Shown in pieces: positions 1 through 19,062 of a DNA stretch of 32,587 bases. The stretch's first letter is position 1; the number at the start of each line of letters is the position of its first letter. Both the position numbers and the translations under genes were made by a program. The stretch is from Acidobacteriota bacterium (GTDB lineage: Bacteria > Acidobacteriota > Terriglobia > Acidiferrales > UBA7541): the NCBI GenBank assembly GCA_003223215.1, contig QHYH01000151.1, positions 1-32,587 on the forward strand, read 5' to 3'. The notes beneath the pieces were generated by a model. That model was not told where the DNA came from. It made no database searches and was given only the letters and a program-made list of their open reading frames with translations.

Positions 1-49
1 CTCCTGTGCTTATCGGGAAACGGGATGTGGCTTCACGGGGCAGGGAATA

Positions 50-375
50 ATGATCTACTCCGACGAACTTCTGGCTGTTGCGAAACGCATCTTCTGTTTT
101 GGCACTCCGGAAGAAGCGCTGGAATTCCCAATACGCTTCTGACCTATGCGATGACCTACGCCTCGGATGAGGACATTGAGACCCTCAAGAAGTATTTCAG
201 TGACGACGAATTCAAAGCTGCGCTCGATGACCCGGCACCTGGGATTTTTGACCAAAGCTCCTGGACGAAATGGAATCAACGCTACGGCCGTACCCCCATT
301 CCGCCGCTTCCGAAGCGACGCATTCCGGGCGTAGACCAGGCCACAGTTCCTGATTTCTTTCCTCCCAAATCCTGA
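50..375 (+). pseudogene. Small hypothetical protein gene broken by one frameshift
   Basis: An ATG at 50 opens a frame (MIYSDELLAVAKRIF...) that stops at about 140. The next frame then continues smoothly from LTYAMTYASDEDIETLKK to the stop at 375. Joined, they make one protein of about 108 residues, helical in the first two thirds, with a Trp/Tyr/Pro-rich tail (SSWTKWNQRYGRTPIPPLP). The acidic helical part followed by a W..W..Y-Pro tail recalls the short partner protein found before AbiEii-type nucleotidyltransferase toxins (DUF6922-like). That is a loose resemblance, not an identification, and no toxin gene follows. One base change near 140 separates it from an intact frame, so it is either a recent pseudogene or a sequencing indel. 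Confidence 0.45.
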
Positions 376-610
376 GGCAGTGATATATCCCCAATCAACT
401 GGCCGCGGGACAACTTCTTCCAGGCTGCCAAGCCAAAGGGGTGACAGGAAGGACAGAATGCCTTCTTGGGCTAATCGCGCGCTTCCGCTTTGCCTTTTGT
501 GGCTTTCAGTCTCCCAGCGTTGCCGAGCCATCTGCCCACCCTTTCCTCTTTGTCTGAGCTTGGTCCCCTCGTTCGCATCCGCTGCATTTCTCGTTTACAT
601 GTGATGTCTA

Positions 611-629
611 TGGTGCTATATATACACCA
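611..629. promoter_or_regulatory. Palindromic operator/promoter candidate upstream of excisionase and integrase
   Basis: TGGTGCTATATATACACCA is a 19-bp near-perfect palindrome with TGGTG/CACCA arms around an alternating AT core that could also serve as a -10 box. It is the only clear dyad between the broken gene ending at 375 and the excisionase gene. A likely role is autoregulation of the excisionase/integrase operon. The same TGGTG/CACCA arm motif recurs at the RHH operator at 28266. Confidence 0.4.
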
Positions 630-690
630 TGCTGAAACGCACTGCCCGTGCGAAAAACGCTAAACCGCCACCTGGCGGAGAGGGAAAGCG

Positions 691-864
691 ATGACCTGGA
701 GGGCTTGCTTGGCGCCACGAATTGACGCAGATTCTCATTGGCCAGCGGCAGGTGGAAACCAGAGTTTTGTGGACAGAGGCAGGAAGAAGTGGTTTCGGCG
801 AAGGCCAAGCTGGCTTCTGCAAAATCCGCAGCCACAAATTGGGGAGGAAGAACAACAACCATGA
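691..864 (+). CDS. Possible 57-residue leader protein in a chain of ATGA overlaps
   Basis: This Arg/Trp/Pro-rich frame (MTWRACLAPRIDADSH...) starts in an ATGA overlap with the stop of an upstream 21-codon frame (629-694). It ends in an ATGA overlap with the excisionase ATG at 861. Two consecutive ATGA overlaps suggest translational coupling, as in compact phage or island operons. I recognise no family, and the composition could equally be chance. It is listed because of the overlap architecture. Confidence 0.22.
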   Translation: MTWRACLAPRIDADSHWPAAGGNQSFVDRGRKKWFRRRPSWLLQNPQPQIGEEEQQP

Positions 865-1076
865 CATCTTCTGCAAAGGAAAGCGCTCCCATGAGAGAGA
901 CAATCGCACTAAGCAAGCGGGAAGCCGCGGAGATTCTCGGAATCAGTGTGCGAACGATTGAGAGGCTGATCGCGTTGAAACATCTAGAGGTGCACCGTCT
1001 GGGCCGCAGAGTGCTGATTCGACGGGTAGCTCTAGAAGGCTTGTTGCGCCGAGATCATCCGACGCGAGCTGCTTGA
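861..1076 (+). CDS. Excisionase-like helix-turn-helix protein
   Basis: This 71-residue protein carries one winged-HTH/MerR-like segment (LSKREAAEILGISVRTIERL, then a basic wing, HRLGRRVLIRR). That is the usual form of excisionase-family (HTH_17) DNA-binding proteins. The start at 861 is preceded by GGGGAGG at 841-847. An alternative ATG at 891, with AAGGAAA upstream, would remove ten non-conserved residues. It lies 154 bp before the integrase start on the same strand, so it probably sets the direction of recombination or represses the operon. The family assignment is firm at the fold level. The excisionase role is inferred from position. Confidence 0.75.
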   Translation: MTSSAKESAPMRETIALSKREAAEILGISVRTIERLIALKHLEVHRLGRRVLIRRVALEGLLRRDHPTRAA

Positions 1077-1230
1077 TTCAAGGAACTGCTCGATGGCGGC
1101 GTGGCCCCGACAATGACAGATGGTTAGCCACCGCTCTATGATAGTAACGATGGTCAACACATTAAATGTTCTGGCAAATGCGCGAAAGAGTCGAGGAGAT
1201 AGACGCCCCAAAGTGTCAAGAGGAGTACAA

Positions 1231-2322
1231 ATGAAGCAACGCGGAGTTTTCGAAAAGGTTCCAGGGTCCGGAATCTGGTGGATACGCTATTTCGATCAGT
1301 TTGGCAAGAAGCGCCGGGAGAAAGCCGGGTCGAAGAGCGTTGCGATCAAACTCTACGGTAAGCGGAAACAGCAAGTGTTGGAGGGCAAGAAGCTTCCTGA
1401 GCTTTTTCGCAAACCCTCAGTGAATTTCACCCAACTCGTTGACGACGCACTCGCGTACTCCAAGAGAAACAAGCGGTCCTACAAGACGGATGTACCTCGC
1501 TTTGCCAGTCTTAAGGAGTGGTTCGGCGCTCATCCTGCCGAGGAACTTACACCCAGAGAGATCGAAAACAAGCTCACAAAGGCGGCCGAGAAAGAGAAGT
1601 GGGCGCCCTCGACATTCAATCACTATCGGTCCCTCATGTCACTGAGTTATCGGCTAGGAATTTTGAATCGCAGGGTGACGTCTAATCCAGCACGGTCCGT
1701 GACGCATCGGCGCGAGGACAACAATCGCGTTCGATTCCTGACCGAAGAAGAGGAAAAGAATCCTCGGAAGGTCGTGCGGGACAAGTGGCTAGCGCACCTG
1801 CCGGAGCTGGATCTGGCGATCAATACCGGCCTTCGCAAGGGGAGCCAATACGGATTAACGTGGGACATGGTAGACTGGAAGTCCCGAGAGCTTCACATTC
1901 CACGTACCAAGAATGAGGAGCCGTTGCACGTACCGCTAAACAACGCGGCTATCAGTGCGCTCAAGGCGGTATTCGAGAGCGGGGATGGAAAAGGGCGCGT
2001 GTTTACGTCTGCAAAAACGGGCGAGCCTCTTGAAAACGGCCGCCACTGGTTTGATGACGCAGTAGTAGAAGCGAAGCTCAAGAACTCTCATGGGCACGAC
2101 TTGCGTCATACGTTTGCGAGCCGATTGCGAACGAAGGGAGCGGCGCTCGAAGATATCGCGGATTTGCTAGGGCACAAGAGTTTGACGATGACCAGGCGTT
2201 ACGCACATCTCGGTCCGAACAAGTTGCATGCCGTGGTGTCACTGCTTGGACCAAGTGACCCCACAAGTGACACCGGCCAAACCGGTCAAGCAGCGACTAC
2301 ATCGCAAGTTGCTGTGCAATAA
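1231..2322 (+). CDS. Tyrosine recombinase / site-specific integrase
   Basis: This 363-residue tyrosine recombinase has an N-terminal arm-binding segment (about 1-55), a SAM-like core-binding domain (about 62-150) and a C-terminal catalytic domain. The catalytic set is complete: Arg202 in NTGLRKGSQ, Lys227 in the beta-hairpin, His289 and Arg292 in HDLRHTFASRL, His315 in LGHKSL, and nucleophile Tyr324 in TRRYAHL. The ATG at 1231 is preferred over the upstream in-frame ATG at 1120 because AGGAG at 1221-1225 precedes it and the family fold begins there. The stop codon lies only 7 nt before the tRNA-Lys gene, which is the probable attachment target. It is likely active, since no lesion is visible. 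Confidence 0.93.
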   Translation: MKQRGVFEKVPGSGIWWIRYFDQFGKKRREKAGSKSVAIKLYGKRKQQVLEGKKLPELFRKPSVNFTQLVDDALAYSKRNKRSYKTDVPRFASLKEWFGAHPAEELTPREIENKLTKAAEKEKWAPSTFNHYRSLMSLSYRLGILNRRVTSNPARSVTHRREDNNRVRFLTEEEEKNPRKVVRDKWLAHLPELDLAINTGLRKGSQYGLTWDMVDWKSRELHIPRTKNEEPLHVPLNNAAISALKAVFESGDGKGRVFTSAKTGEPLENGRHWFDDAVVEAKLKNSHGHDLRHTFASRLRTKGAALEDIADLLGHKSLTMTRRYAHLGPNKLHAVVSLLGPSDPTSDTGQTGQAATTSQVAVQ

Positions 2323-2329
2323 AGAGTTT

Positions 2330-2404
2330 AGGGGCGTAGCTCAGTGGTAGAGCAGCGGCCTTTTAAGCCGAAGGTCGTGGGTTCGATCCCCACCGCCCCT
2401 ACCA
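2330..2404 (+). tRNA. tRNA-Lys (anticodon UUU), CCA encoded
   Basis: A full cloverleaf can be drawn. The acceptor AGGGGCG (2330-2336) pairs perfectly with CGCCCCT (2394-2400). The D stem is GCTC/GAGC, and the anticodon stem-loop centres on TTT at 2362-2364 in loop CTTTTAA. The T arm is GTGGG-TTCGATC-CCCAC. A2401 is the discriminator and CCA follows at 2402-2404. The outermost anticodon pair is G-A. I see no convincing promoter in the 7-nt gap or the end of the integrase gene, so it may be transcribed through the integrase gene. Its 3' end is the core of the attachment-site repeats listed below. Confidence 0.95.
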
Positions 2405-2497
2405 ACCATCCCATTTGCTGAGAATGACTTAGCGATTTCGCGCGGCGGCAAAAGGCGGCAATAAGAAAAAAACGAGCCTCGAGGGTGGCGCCTATGG
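2379..2497 (+). repeat. Attachment-type repeat A: tRNA 3' end plus ~85-bp arm
   Basis: The tRNA 3' end together with the DNA to about 2497 is repeated at 13762-13867 with roughly 90% identity, judged by eye. The arm holds CGCGGCGGCAAAAGGCGGCA, which is GGCGGCA in tandem and suits integrase arm sites. The 3' 27 bp of the tRNA (2379-2405) are also found at 4806-4832, and a slightly shorter part at 19036-19058. This is the left-type end (followed by ACCAACCATCCC) of an integrated element that used tRNA-Lys. Confidence 0.8.
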
Positions 2498-2534
2498 CTC
2501 TCGCGAACAAGAAATCAGAAGCACTGGCCAATTC

Positions 2535-2789
2535 TTAGAGGCTAAGGATTCTGTGACCATCAGCGACTTCGCGGCGGGCATCCGTGAGGCAGCCGGAACG
2601 TAGCCGATCGATCTCCGCAGGGCTCAGTTTTCAATTTTTTGCATGTGCAAGTGCGGAGGCAAGCGCCTGCTCCAATTGGGCTGCCTGCTGAACTGGATTT
2701 GAGCCCGCGCTGAAGTTCATTGGAGCAACTTGCAATTCAGATGCACAATCGTGCCAGGCAGTCCACAAAGACTCGAGGCGTTGAGCCAT
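2535..2789 (-). pseudogene. Degraded small ORF with one in-frame stop
   Basis: On the minus strand an ATG at 2789 opens MAQRLESLWTAWHDCASELQ... and runs to a TGA at 2631-2633. The same frame then continues (KLSPAEIDRLRSGCLTDARR...) to a TAA at 2535-2537, about 84 codons in all. The composition is protein-like on both sides of the TGA. I do not recognise the family. It may be cargo of the first tRNA-Lys insertion that has decayed. The rest of 2498-2940 shows nothing further. Confidence 0.3.
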
Positions 2790-2947
2790 GCTCGTCCAGA
2801 AACAGTGCCGCCTGTGTGACGCTGATTGGATTTGGTGAGGGCACCTTAGCTCGGAGCTGTGGGATAGGAAGGACGATTGCGGCGGTCAAGTTCTTCGGTC
2901 ACTACATGTAAATGAAGGTTTGGCGACAAGCCTGGCCATAGTCCATG

Positions 2948-3008: not shown

Positions 3009-3266
3009 ATGGCCACTACCAAACTATCCAGCCGGGAGTTTAACCAGGACACAAGCAGGGCGAAGAGAGCGGCCAAACGCGGTCCTGTCTTCATCACTGA
3101 CCGAGGACGCCCGTCTCACGTGCTACTTACTGTTGAGGAATACCAGAAGCTTACCGAGGGGCAGAAGAGCATTGTGGACCTGTTGGGAATGCCACAGGCC
3201 GCTGAAATTGAATTTGAGCCGCCTCGCATGAAAGGCAATCTCCACCAGCCGGCAGATTTGTCCTGA
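3009..3266 (+). CDS. Phd/YefM-type antitoxin
   Basis: This 85-residue antitoxin has the Phd/YefM N-terminal DNA-binding fold: KLSSREFNQDTSRAKRAA, then GPVFITDRGRPSHVLLTVEEY, the conserved strand-turn-strand with an RG turn. Its C-terminal tail (about 50-85) would wrap the toxin. Its stop overlaps the toxin start as TGATG, the usual coupled arrangement. It should bind the AATGTAG/CTACATT dyad 14 bp upstream and neutralise the PIN-domain RNase encoded next. No lesion is visible, so the module is probably functional and may stabilise the surrounding island. Confidence 0.88.
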   Translation: MATTKLSSREFNQDTSRAKRAAKRGPVFITDRGRPSHVLLTVEEYQKLTEGQKSIVDLLGMPQAAEIEFEPPRMKGNLHQPADLS

Positions 3267-3679
3267 TGTATCTCCTCGATACCAATGTAGTTTCCGAGTT
3301 AAGAAAAGCTAAGAAGGCGGATCGCGGCGTCAGAATGTGGGCCCAGGCGCTTCCGGCTGCGAGCCTTTATCTATGTGCGATCTCAATATTGGAACTGGAG
3401 CTAGGAATCCTCCTCATCGAACGGCGTGACCGGAAACAGGGAGCGGTTCTTCGAGCCTGGATGGACGGCCATGTTTTGCCCGCGTTCGACGGTCGCATCC
3501 TTGCGATTGATACTGCTGTTGCCCAGCGGTGCGCGGCGCTCCACGTGCCCAGTCCTCGCTCCGATCGTGACGCTCTCATCGCGGCCACTGCCCTTGTTCA
3601 CGGCATGACGGTTGTGACCCGCAACGTGGATCACTTTCAGCCCACAGGTGTGGCCGTAGTTAACCCCTGGCAATCCTGA
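3266..3679 (+). CDS. vapC: VapC/FitB-like PIN-domain ribonuclease toxin
   Basis: This 137-residue PIN-domain protein has the acidic metal-binding set in order: Asp5 in YLLDTNVVSE, Glu43 in ISILELELG, Asp100/Asp102 in SDRDALIAATA, and Asp122 near TRNVDHF. Proteins of this family cut tRNA or rRNA in a Mg2+-dependent way. FitB-like members pair with Phd- or AbrB-type antitoxins, as here. The start overlaps the antitoxin stop (TGATG at 3264-3268). Length is normal for the family. The symbol names the family; the exact subtype is not determined. Confidence 0.9.
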   Translation: MYLLDTNVVSELRKAKKADRGVRMWAQALPAASLYLCAISILELELGILLIERRDRKQGAVLRAWMDGHVLPAFDGRILAIDTAVAQRCAALHVPSPRSDRDALIAATALVHGMTVVTRNVDHFQPTGVAVVNPWQS

Positions 3680-4566: not shown

Positions 4567-4740
4567 GGGCAAATCGGAAGTAGTCCGCTTTGACGAAAAA
4601 CGCGCAGCTTGAATGGAGGTCGTAGGTTTCTACCCCACGTCCCATAGAATTGATCTCGTTGGTGGACATGAACTTAGTGAATTGTCGAGGCGGCAGACGG
4701 CGGCGGCTGGATCTCGATTACGCCAAGTCATTTGCTAGCA
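4567..4740 (+). repeat. Repeat R2, copy 1
   Basis: This ~170-bp stretch matches 13293-13500. Both share the block TTTGACGAAAAACGCG, the block GTAGGTTTCT.CCCCACGTCCC, and the run from GAATTGTC to a CTCGAT-containing end. Copy 2 contains about 35 extra bp. Each copy comes shortly before a tRNA-Lys 3'-end repeat (66 bp here). It looks like an end sequence of related integrated elements. It has no long coding frame. Confidence 0.7.
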
Positions 4741-4805
4741 GCAAGATGCCGATATCCATATTGCGGCCTGTCCGCCGTAAATCACCGCGAATTCGAAGGG
4801 TGTCC

Positions 4806-4835
4806 GGGTTCGATCCCCACCGCCCCTACCAAAAC
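4806..4835 (+). repeat. Attachment-type repeat B: tRNA-Lys 3' end
   Basis: Positions 4806-4832 match the last 27 bp of the tRNA-Lys region (2379-2405). Upstream bases (TTCGAAGGGTGTCC) still resemble the tRNA anticodon-stem/variable region but cannot form the tRNA. It is followed by AAAAC, as is copy D at 19036, rather than by ACCATCCC as in copies A and C. It is probably the far end left by an integration between A and B. Confidence 0.75.
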
Positions 4836-6182: not shown

Positions 6183-6579
6183 GGCAACATCGTCTCAAGC
6201 ATGTTCACGCCCGTACTTGCTAAGCACACCAAGCACTTGAGCCTTGTGGACATCCTCTCGGTTGGCGTAGACCGTATGCAGCGGAACTTCGAGCCGATGA
6301 GGAAACAGGTCGAGGTCTGGAAGGGGACACGTCTTCCAGACGATGCCGCGAAGCTCGTCGTATACCGGGCCTTTGTGGAAGGCGAGTTGGATGTTCCCCA
6401 GCATCTCGCCCGCCGGGTCCATGATCTGTACTTCAATCCGCAGGTCGAGGAATTCGGTCCGAGGACAACGTGGAGTCTCTCCAACGCGTTCACGAGTGCA
6501 TTCAAAGAATCTCGACCCGATTCCGCAGTTCAAGGCAACCGCGAAGCTGGCATCGTTCCTAGAACCGGTGACCACCTGA
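6183..6579 (+). pseudogene. DUF932 protein C-terminal fragment, copy 1
   Basis: The frame reads NIVSSMFTPVLAKHTKHLSL, then VDRMQRNFEPMRKQVEVWKG, VVYRAFVEGELDVPQHLARR, and LYFNPQVEEFGPRTTWSLSN. A frameshift near 6510 moves the ending (LDPIPQFKATAKLASFLE) into the next frame. This is the C-terminal third of DUF932 proteins, which are common on plasmids, phages and islands and are of uncertain role, often encoded near recombination or anti-restriction genes. The N-terminal two thirds are absent. A second fragment at 11441-11844 begins at the same residue. DNA from 6580 to 6740 shows nothing. Confidence 0.7.
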
Positions 6580-6746
6580 CCGAACTAAGTTGGTTGTTGT
6601 GGACAGGCTGTGAAGGAACGTCAATAGCCGCGATTTGGTGTGCTGAGGTAGCTTGCGCCCCCAAACCATAAACGCGATCCCAGAAATGATCTACCGACAA
6701 ACACTTCGTTGAGCCCCGCCAAAAACGTACTTTTGACAATTTCCGT

Positions 6747-11440: not shown

Positions 11441-11844
11441 GCAACATTGTCCCAGGTGCTTTCACTCCGGTGCTAGCGAAGCACACAAAACACCTCAGTC
11501 TCGTTGACGTGCTCTCAATCGGAATCGATCGGATTCAGCGAAATTTCGAGCCCATGAAGAGACAGGTCGAGGTCTGGAAGGGCACGCGAGTTTGGGACGA
11601 ATCAGCAAAACTGGTCATCTACCGCGCGTTCGTGCGGGGTGAGTTGGATGTTCCCAAGCACCTGGCCCGGCGAGTTCACGGCCCTCTATTTCAATCCACA
11701 GGTCGAGGAATTCGCCCCACGGACGACATGGAGTCTCTCCAACGCGTTCACAAGTGCGTTCAAGGAACTTGACCCGATTCCCCAGTCAAGGCGACGGCAA
11801 GGCTTACATCCTTTCTGGAGCGGGCGGCAGTACCCTCAAATTAG
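11441..11844 (+). pseudogene. DUF932 protein C-terminal fragment, copy 2
   Basis: The encoded text is NIVPGAFTPVLAKHTKHLSL, then RIQRNFEPMKRQVEVWKGTR, and YFNPQVEEFAPRTTWSLSNA. It continues to LDPIPQ and, after another shift, KATARLTSFLERAAVPSN with a TAG at 11842-11844. At least two frameshifts (about 11680 and 11785) break it. Its 5' limit (GCAACATTGTC at 11441) is the same codon as in copy 1 at 6183, while the flanking DNA differs. Its 3' end overlaps by 9 bp the end of the truncated, convergent sigma-54 activator frame. Confidence 0.7.
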
Positions 11845-13761: not shown

Positions 13762-13867
13762 CCGCCCCTACCAACCATCCCATTTGCTCACAATGACTTA
13801 GCGATTTCGCGCGGCGGCAAATGGCGGCAATCAGAAATAAACTGAGCCTCTTGGGTGGCGCCTAGGC
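13762..13867 (+). repeat. Attachment-type repeat C: tRNA-Lys end plus arm
   Basis: About 105 bp match 2393-2497. They start with CCGCCCCTACCAACCATCCC, the last bases of the tRNA and beyond, and include the GCGGCGGCAAATGGCGGCAA arm. Bases upstream of 13762 do not match the tRNA, so this is a partial copy only. It marks a second left-type element end. The following 13868-14042 contains no gene. Confidence 0.8.
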
Positions 13868-19035: not shown

Positions 19036-19062
19036 TTCGATCCCCACCGCCCCTACCAAAAC
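19036..19062 (+). repeat. Attachment-type repeat D: tRNA-Lys 3' end
   Basis: TTCGATCCCCACCGCCCCTA and the following CCAAAAC match 4809-4835 exactly and the tRNA 3' end up to CCAA. Like copy B, it is followed by AAAAC. It is the last trace of the tRNA end in the window and lies 17 bp before the IS481-type remnant, closing the ladder of integrations. Confidence 0.75.

Follow-up and report, generated by a model that had tools for sequence, protein, structure and literature searches.

Why should an integrase gene stop a few nucleotides before the 5' end of an intact tRNA gene, when the classical island lies on the 3' side of its tRNA, and what then transcribes that tRNA? The question arises in a contig of an Acidobacteriota bacterium that we analysed over its 32 587 nucleotides (the window), in which an intact tyrosine integrase gene closes 7 nt before an intact tRNA-Lys(UUU) gene on the same strand (Table 1). 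An earlier note, made from the letters of this DNA, had offered two answers: the element carries a complete tRNA-Lys, or another copy lies further upstream. Comparison with related integrases, and with the same locus in other genomes of the genus, points to a third.

Results

The coordinates of the integrase stop and the tRNA in the earlier note proved exact, as did the shared strand and the 7-nt gap, when checked with ARAGORN, the open reading frames and Pfam. ARAGORN found a single tRNA in the window, tRNA-Lys(ttt), and the integrase frame, with its start at 1120 (or 1231), ends in a TAA at 2320-2322. The protein matches the Pfam family Phage_integrase (PF00589, E 3.6e-27) and is thus a tyrosine recombinase; it retains R, K, HxxR, H and Y, residues that do not vary across 12 relatives and that we take to be the catalytic ones. 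Its gene is one unbroken frame that closes before the tRNA, not one split by integration in the manner of pTN3. Codon positions 1, 2 and 3 differ by 13%, 9% and 50% between the integrases of the window and of genome G035 (dN 0.10; dS 3.2, saturated), a pattern showing that purifying selection acted on it for most of this divergence. The small HTH_17 protein encoded ahead of the integrase is present in the related element L213 too.

Just past the tRNA lies a pair of genes for a Phd/YefM antitoxin and a PIN-domain toxin (3009-3679), and two similar small open reading frames stand about 5.3 kb apart (6201-6671 and 11470-11772). The tRNA-Lys 3' end recurs in three direct copies downstream of the tRNA (4806-4832, 13762-13803 and 19036-19059), between which no relative of the window integrase was found; these copies are the putative remains of stacked 3'-side elements.

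Table 1. Features of the integrase-tRNA junction in the window, and upstream 5'-half tRNA copies in six related elements
Feature	Position	Strand	Basis or remark
Small HTH_17 protein, possible excisionase (putative role); end of an open reading frame opening at 738	891..1076	+	Pfam PF12728, E 6.7e-11
Promoter-like site ATGACA-18-TATGAT, from which a transcript through integrase and tRNA might start	1113..1142	+	Consensus scan; no more than expected by chance
Tyrosine integrase gene, last gene at the element's right end; frame open from 1120	1231..2322	+	PF00589, invariant columns, codon-position differences
Spacer AGAGTTT, 7 nt, integrase stop to tRNA	2323..2329	+	Sequence
Complete tRNA-Lys(UUU), CCA encoded; interpreted as a hybrid of an element 5' half and a host 3' half	2330..2404	+	ARAGORN; hybrid nature deduced from relatives
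tRNA 5' half, thought to be element-derived; crossover would lie in the anticodon loop, about 2360-2366	2330..2366	+	5'-half repeats in six related elements, broken-off flanks in G029 and G017, half in G021
L163, tRNA-Lys nt 1-40 copy	6.2 kb upstream		
L167, tRNA-Leu nt 1-41 copy	4.4 kb upstream		
L183, tRNA-Phe nt -3 to 39 copy	5.4 kb upstream		
L188, tRNA-Met nt 0-39 copy	9.4 kb upstream		
L213, tRNA-Leu nt -3 to 40 copy	5.5 kb upstream		
L237, tRNA-Leu nt -1 to 40 copy	1.0 kb upstream		Integrase truncated

The unusual 5'-side position of the integrase, to which the earlier note had drawn attention, recurs widely. A profile of 12 such integrases was run on genome contigs, and among the best 80 of 391 relatives 42 stand before a complete co-oriented tRNA, 14 are convergent (facing the tRNA 3' end) and 24 have none, a class that includes four loci (L166, L200, L219 and L229) whose co-oriented tRNA is truncated at the edge of the contig or contains Ns. 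The tRNAs used by the 42 (best 80 of 391) are those for Lys, Leu, Met, Arg, Phe, Ser and Asp. On viral contigs, the first 61 of 78 loci comprised 6 co-oriented, 1 convergent and 54 without a tRNA; the co-oriented set considered below is formed by the 42 genome loci and these 6 (n=48). The co-oriented arrangement is more than chance and no oddity of this contig.

As a comparison set we took, from the window's own genome, 19 integrase matches of lower similarity (27-47% identity), scoring a tRNA within 500 nt of the stop: three were co-oriented with a tRNA, one was convergent (L029) and 15 had none. Gaps at the three were about 316 nt (L021), 18 nt (L024) and 11 nt (L031), suggesting that 5'-side insertion may be common in this lineage; 3 of 19 against 42 of 80 (best 80 of 391) indicates that the arrangement is much commoner in the window family, and not confined to its clade. 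The tRNAs that follow L031 (G000:C271), L024 (G000:C100) and L021 (G000:C14) are those for Glu, Gln and Met, respectively. In a quick tree of 129 integrases, some of its branches long, the window falls within a 57-row set (SH-aLRT 96) of 35 co-oriented, 0 convergent and 22 undetermined members, and at least five changes of orientation are needed over the tree, three of them forced by well-supported branches. The window-type clade occurs mostly in acidobacterial records.

Such recurrence bears on the idea of an old remnant, or of a classical 3'-side island in which a rearrangement shifted or inverted the integrase end so that it came to lie on the 5' side. That idea would accommodate the tRNA-Lys 3' fragments downstream in the window, as well as the classical convergent integrases found after tRNA-Lys in several genomes of the genus, but we consider it very unlikely given a co-oriented layout at more than half of the 80 best relatives, at many different tRNAs, and given that the upstream repeats described next are 5' halves.

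A classical island, with the element on the 3' side of the tRNA and a 3' fragment at its far end, is not what the related elements resemble. In 6 of the 48 co-oriented loci a second copy, of the tRNA 5' half only, lies upstream on the same strand, 100% identical over 40-44 nt and 1-9 kb away. Three of 15 convergent loci carry a 3'-half copy instead, running from nt 29 or 32 to just beyond the 3' end (95% identity in L182, 100% in L230 and L236), and the two types of copy meet in the anticodon loop. Promoter-type DNA precedes some of the left copies (CATAAT in L213, TAGAAT in L237), and the end of the integrase precedes the right ones. In seven of the 48 loci (L169, L176, L204, L212, L215, L244 and L268) the match to the tRNA, or to its 3' flank, is on the far side and in some covers only 13-17 nt; the longer of these matches are read as separate 3'-side elements. 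The other 35 gave no repeat in the DNA compared, often a short stretch. Both the seven and the 35 count against entry from the 5' side.

At some tRNAs (L215, 11839-11854 onward; L204, 3742) a 5'-side integrase occurs together with a downstream 3'-half copy, so that one tRNA may be entered from both sides. The left arms of L163, L167, L188 and L213 share, by eye, short motifs of the type ACGCAGCA or ACGCAGTA, perhaps arm sites of the integrase. Ten open reading frames from the integrated elements L213, L163, L183 and L188 yielded seven Pfam matches, one under Pfam's own cut-off; the families include AAA_25 (two), a DnaG-type zinc ribbon, DUF3631, DUF3854 and HTH_17, and no capsid family was among them.

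Elsewhere the integrase is followed by a lone tRNA 5' half, namely in L240/L242 (one sequence type), L249, L258, L260 and L269. These halves would be attP sites or tandem junctions, and may be tandem junctions and not free attP. Phage-type genes lie near several of them: an exonuclease in L260, an endolysin in L249, and a terminase and second integrase in L258, the last of which fits a tandem junction.

If the element brought its own complete tRNA-Lys, as in tRNA-dependent lysogeny and as the earlier note had suggested, the host tRNA would lie upstream or have been lost. Whole-tRNA phages are known (PMC10865867), a complete tRNA does adjoin the integrase, and the left end is missing from the window's element. 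We nevertheless find this quite improbable, since the 5' half is alone at the far end of six relatives, lone 5' halves follow the integrase in the loci just named and in G021, and no second complete tRNA-Lys was found in the window's own assembly. What related elements bring is the 5' half only (nt 1 to about 40), and what sits upstream is not another copy but the host's own 5' half, left stranded there and sometimes still accompanied by its old promoter.

The upstream search for a second tRNA-Lys or its 5' half, which the earlier note had proposed, thus succeeded for 5' halves in relatives and not at the window's own left end. Matches in its assembly (97.65% complete) other than the window tRNA-Lys(TTT) are 3' fragments or other tRNAs. 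The ancestral flank of the tRNA is found apart from it, on contig C130 (14300-15990, minus strand); the 14.3 kb that follow contain no tRNA-Lys, and no 5' half or promoter block is recognisable after the flank (best 20/37; shuffles 19-22). Contig C47 begins at window position 1, and the element's own left end was not found, which counts against entry from the 5' side. If C130 and C47 join in this way, a distance of no less than about 16.6 kb would separate the tRNA from its ancestral neighbour. Another stretch of this genome, L154 (G000:C37, 7452-10446), is a diverged copy of window 2366-2906 and 4625-4834 that starts at tRNA-Lys nt 37 and on which no tRNA gene was found; further tRNA-Lys 3'-end fragments occur in L155 (G000:C140, 5286-5411), L156 (G000:C229, 7435-7457) and L157 (G000:C79, 747-770).

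The displacement is documented at the same locus within the genus. We compared 28 tRNA-Lys(TTT) sites, 27 from the window's genus (36 genomes searched, the rest having no full match or not being compared) and one from another genus of the family. An integrase or its remains directly precede the tRNA at 10 of the 28 sites (the window, G035, G001, G034, G030, G017, G016, G031, G006 and G025), the match in G006 being weak (31 residues) and the tRNA of G025 being cut by a contig end; the other 18 are without a window-type integrase. Only the window has a whole integrase frame: that of G001 is open over the part present and cut by a contig end, that of G035 has one stop, at residue 215, and the remaining copies are truncated or broken. 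In G034, G030, G017, G016, G031 and G006 the integrase match starts at residue 114-204, with no DNA match to window 1-1592 ahead of it, and the tRNA is intact; these six genomes keep their tRNA behind an incomplete integrase, so co-transcription is not a general requirement.

About 17-22 nt ahead of the tRNA, several genomes without the integrase (for example G028, G022, G008, G010, G007 and G004) carry a block of the TACAAT type. The flank adjoining the tRNA in such genomes continues, in G029 and G017, through this block into tRNA nt 36-37 and then breaks off, leaving the old promoter block stranded, intact in G029 and decayed in G017. The complete tRNA-Lys of G017 stands 39 kb beyond the broken flank, behind an integrase pseudogene: this is the displacement itself, caught at an orthologous site. 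In an eleventh genome, G021, integrase remains are followed by tRNA-Lys nt 1-41 and then by unrelated DNA, a half that its sequence marks as the predicted attP-type or tandem junction for tRNA-Lys itself. Living elements kept using the tRNA-Lys site, and most copies in the genus are dead remains, in which preferential conservation of the last 30 nt was not clear.

Among 26 tRNA-Lys loci searched upstream for a 5'-half remnant, G030 alone stood out (33/37, 7.3 kb upstream); we rejected this half as a left end, as the old promoter is not in front of it and a tandem junction may account for it. On another G035 contig, a half whose inner sequence is common to the G029 left end was set aside likewise, the old promoter being missing there too. 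No clean empty site was found for G045, the flanks being too diverged, and this also counts against 5'-side entry.

Classical convergent integrases stand after tRNA-Lys in several genomes of the genus. The integrase and tRNA might alternatively form a fixed, integron-like platform that gathers 3'-side units downstream, a notion prompted by the three direct-orientation 3' fragments in the window with no integrase relative found between them. It is exceedingly unlikely, because 3'-side insertions in the genus often carry their own convergent integrase, co-oriented relatives sit at the right edge of elements that extend leftward, and 18 of the 28 tRNA-Lys sites do without the window-type integrase.

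The earlier note had seen no separate promoter for the tRNA, and rightly so: a scan of window 600-2700 found neither a sigma-70-like nor a terminator-like site between integrase and tRNA, the sole promoter-like site lying ahead of the integrase (1 found against 0.8 expected). At -32 to -5 before the window tRNA the best -10-like hexamer has only 2/6 matches. Among its co-oriented relatives, -10-like hexamers (at least 5/6 matches, with A2 and T6) are enriched before the tRNA, occurring in 14 of 46 regions (two of the 48 loci were omitted for repeats or shortness) against a shuffle mean of 6.4 and maximum of 13, so that 0 of 500 shuffles reach 14; at 4/6 matches the enrichment is weak (28 of 46, shuffle mean 21.4, 9/500). 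Examples are TATAAT in L215 and TATAGT in L169, L184 and L186. Convergent loci have such sites in 1 of 15 cases on the integrase side; on the 5' side of the tRNA itself, they occur in 4 of 14. The integrase-end DNA common to the window and L213 (CAAGTYGCTGTGCAATA) was considered as a promoter and rejected, because CAATAA/CAATAG ends are also found in L122 and L124, which are convergent or have no tRNA found.

Read-through from the integrase is the simplest reading for the window, where no -10-like site is seen, as has been reported for pTN3. The window tRNA is probably transcribed in this way, or else from an unrecognised site. Co-transcription with release of the tRNA by RNase P, as the earlier note had imagined, is compatible with the window and may occur there.

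Discussion

Taken with the half-tRNA repeats of relatives and the displacement seen within the genus, the recurrent arrangement leads us to propose, with a probability of roughly 0.85, that recombination in the anticodon loop lets the element replace the tRNA 5' half together with its promoter, as the mirror image of the usual island. The integrase and the tRNA 5' half would mark the right end of an element that integrates into tRNA genes from their 5' side, with an attP just past the integrase stop holding about the first 37-41 nt of a tRNA. A crossover in the anticodon loop would join the element's 5' half to the host's 3' half and so place a complete hybrid tRNA directly behind the integrase, while the host's own promoter and 5' half would be stranded at the element's far end. 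We infer the position of strand exchange, the window's own left end and the route of transcription. After insertion, transcription of the tRNA would depend on element DNA: a -10-like site near the integrase end would serve some relatives, and read-through or an unrecognised site would serve the window.

The principle has an archaeal precedent. Integrases of the pTN3 type in Thermococcales use the tRNA 5' half, and expression of the tRNA is afterwards driven by the integrase promoter, a situation described as seldom met in bacteria (PMC8371274, citing Williams, 2002); the pTN3 core is 41 bp long and includes the anticodon, and the remade tRNA is separated from its original promoter (PMC5495485). 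The present system is similar in its 5'-half core reaching the anticodon loop, seen in relatives and in genomes of the genus though not at the window's own left end, and in the parting of tRNA and original promoter (G029, G017 and the window genome's own flank on C130). It differs in being bacterial and having many tRNA targets, and whereas integration disrupts the pTN3 integrase gene, the window integrase is whole beside its tRNA. Compared with the rare bacterial 5'-side cases of Williams (2002), as the citing review describes them (PMC8371274), we are dealing here with a clade of tens of members.

With classical tRNA islands and prophages the window system shares a tyrosine integrase, a crossover inside the tRNA gene and the restoration of a complete tRNA, and the convergent members of its integrase family restore the 3' half just as those islands do. 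In the window system, however, it is the 5' half that is exchanged; the integrase lies ahead of a tRNA on its own strand, and that tRNA loses the host promoter. In the tRNA-dependent lysogeny described for actinobacteriophages, the tRNA genes involved include tRNA-Lys-TTT and the element is responsible for the tRNA afterwards, but these phages are reported to share only about 10 bp with the host, bringing a whole tRNA with no rebuilding (PMC10865867); here, to judge from relatives, half a tRNA rebuilds the gene. Tycheposon-like islands, as portrayed in PMC10872708, also have a tyrosine recombinase and a tRNA at the element border. In the open-access literature searched, we found no title on a bacterial integrase clade of the 5'-half type. 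The 5'-half principle is already known, from archaeal pTN3 and as a reported rarity in bacteria (PMC8371274), and a bacterial clade that follows it looks new.

It is tempting, though doubtful, to see an addiction device in this promoter swap: acting on the only tRNA-Lys(UUU), it could make translation depend on integrase-end DNA, the tRNA being either cut from the integrase mRNA or transcribed from a site that overlaps the integrase end. If true, this would explain why integrase remains persist on tRNA-Lys at 10 of the 28 sites long after most of these integrase genes died.

The window belongs to a soil bacterium whose only tRNA-Lys(UUU) copy found now stands directly behind the integrase of an element. 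Related integrases use either half of a tRNA around one loop, and programs that look for islands past the 3' end of a tRNA presumably place elements of the 5'-half type on the wrong side. In usual islands the host tRNA stays under the control of its own promoter; in the window clade, transcription of an essential type of tRNA passes to DNA borne by the element, and whether such capture of a tRNA promoter stabilises mobile elements can now be tested.
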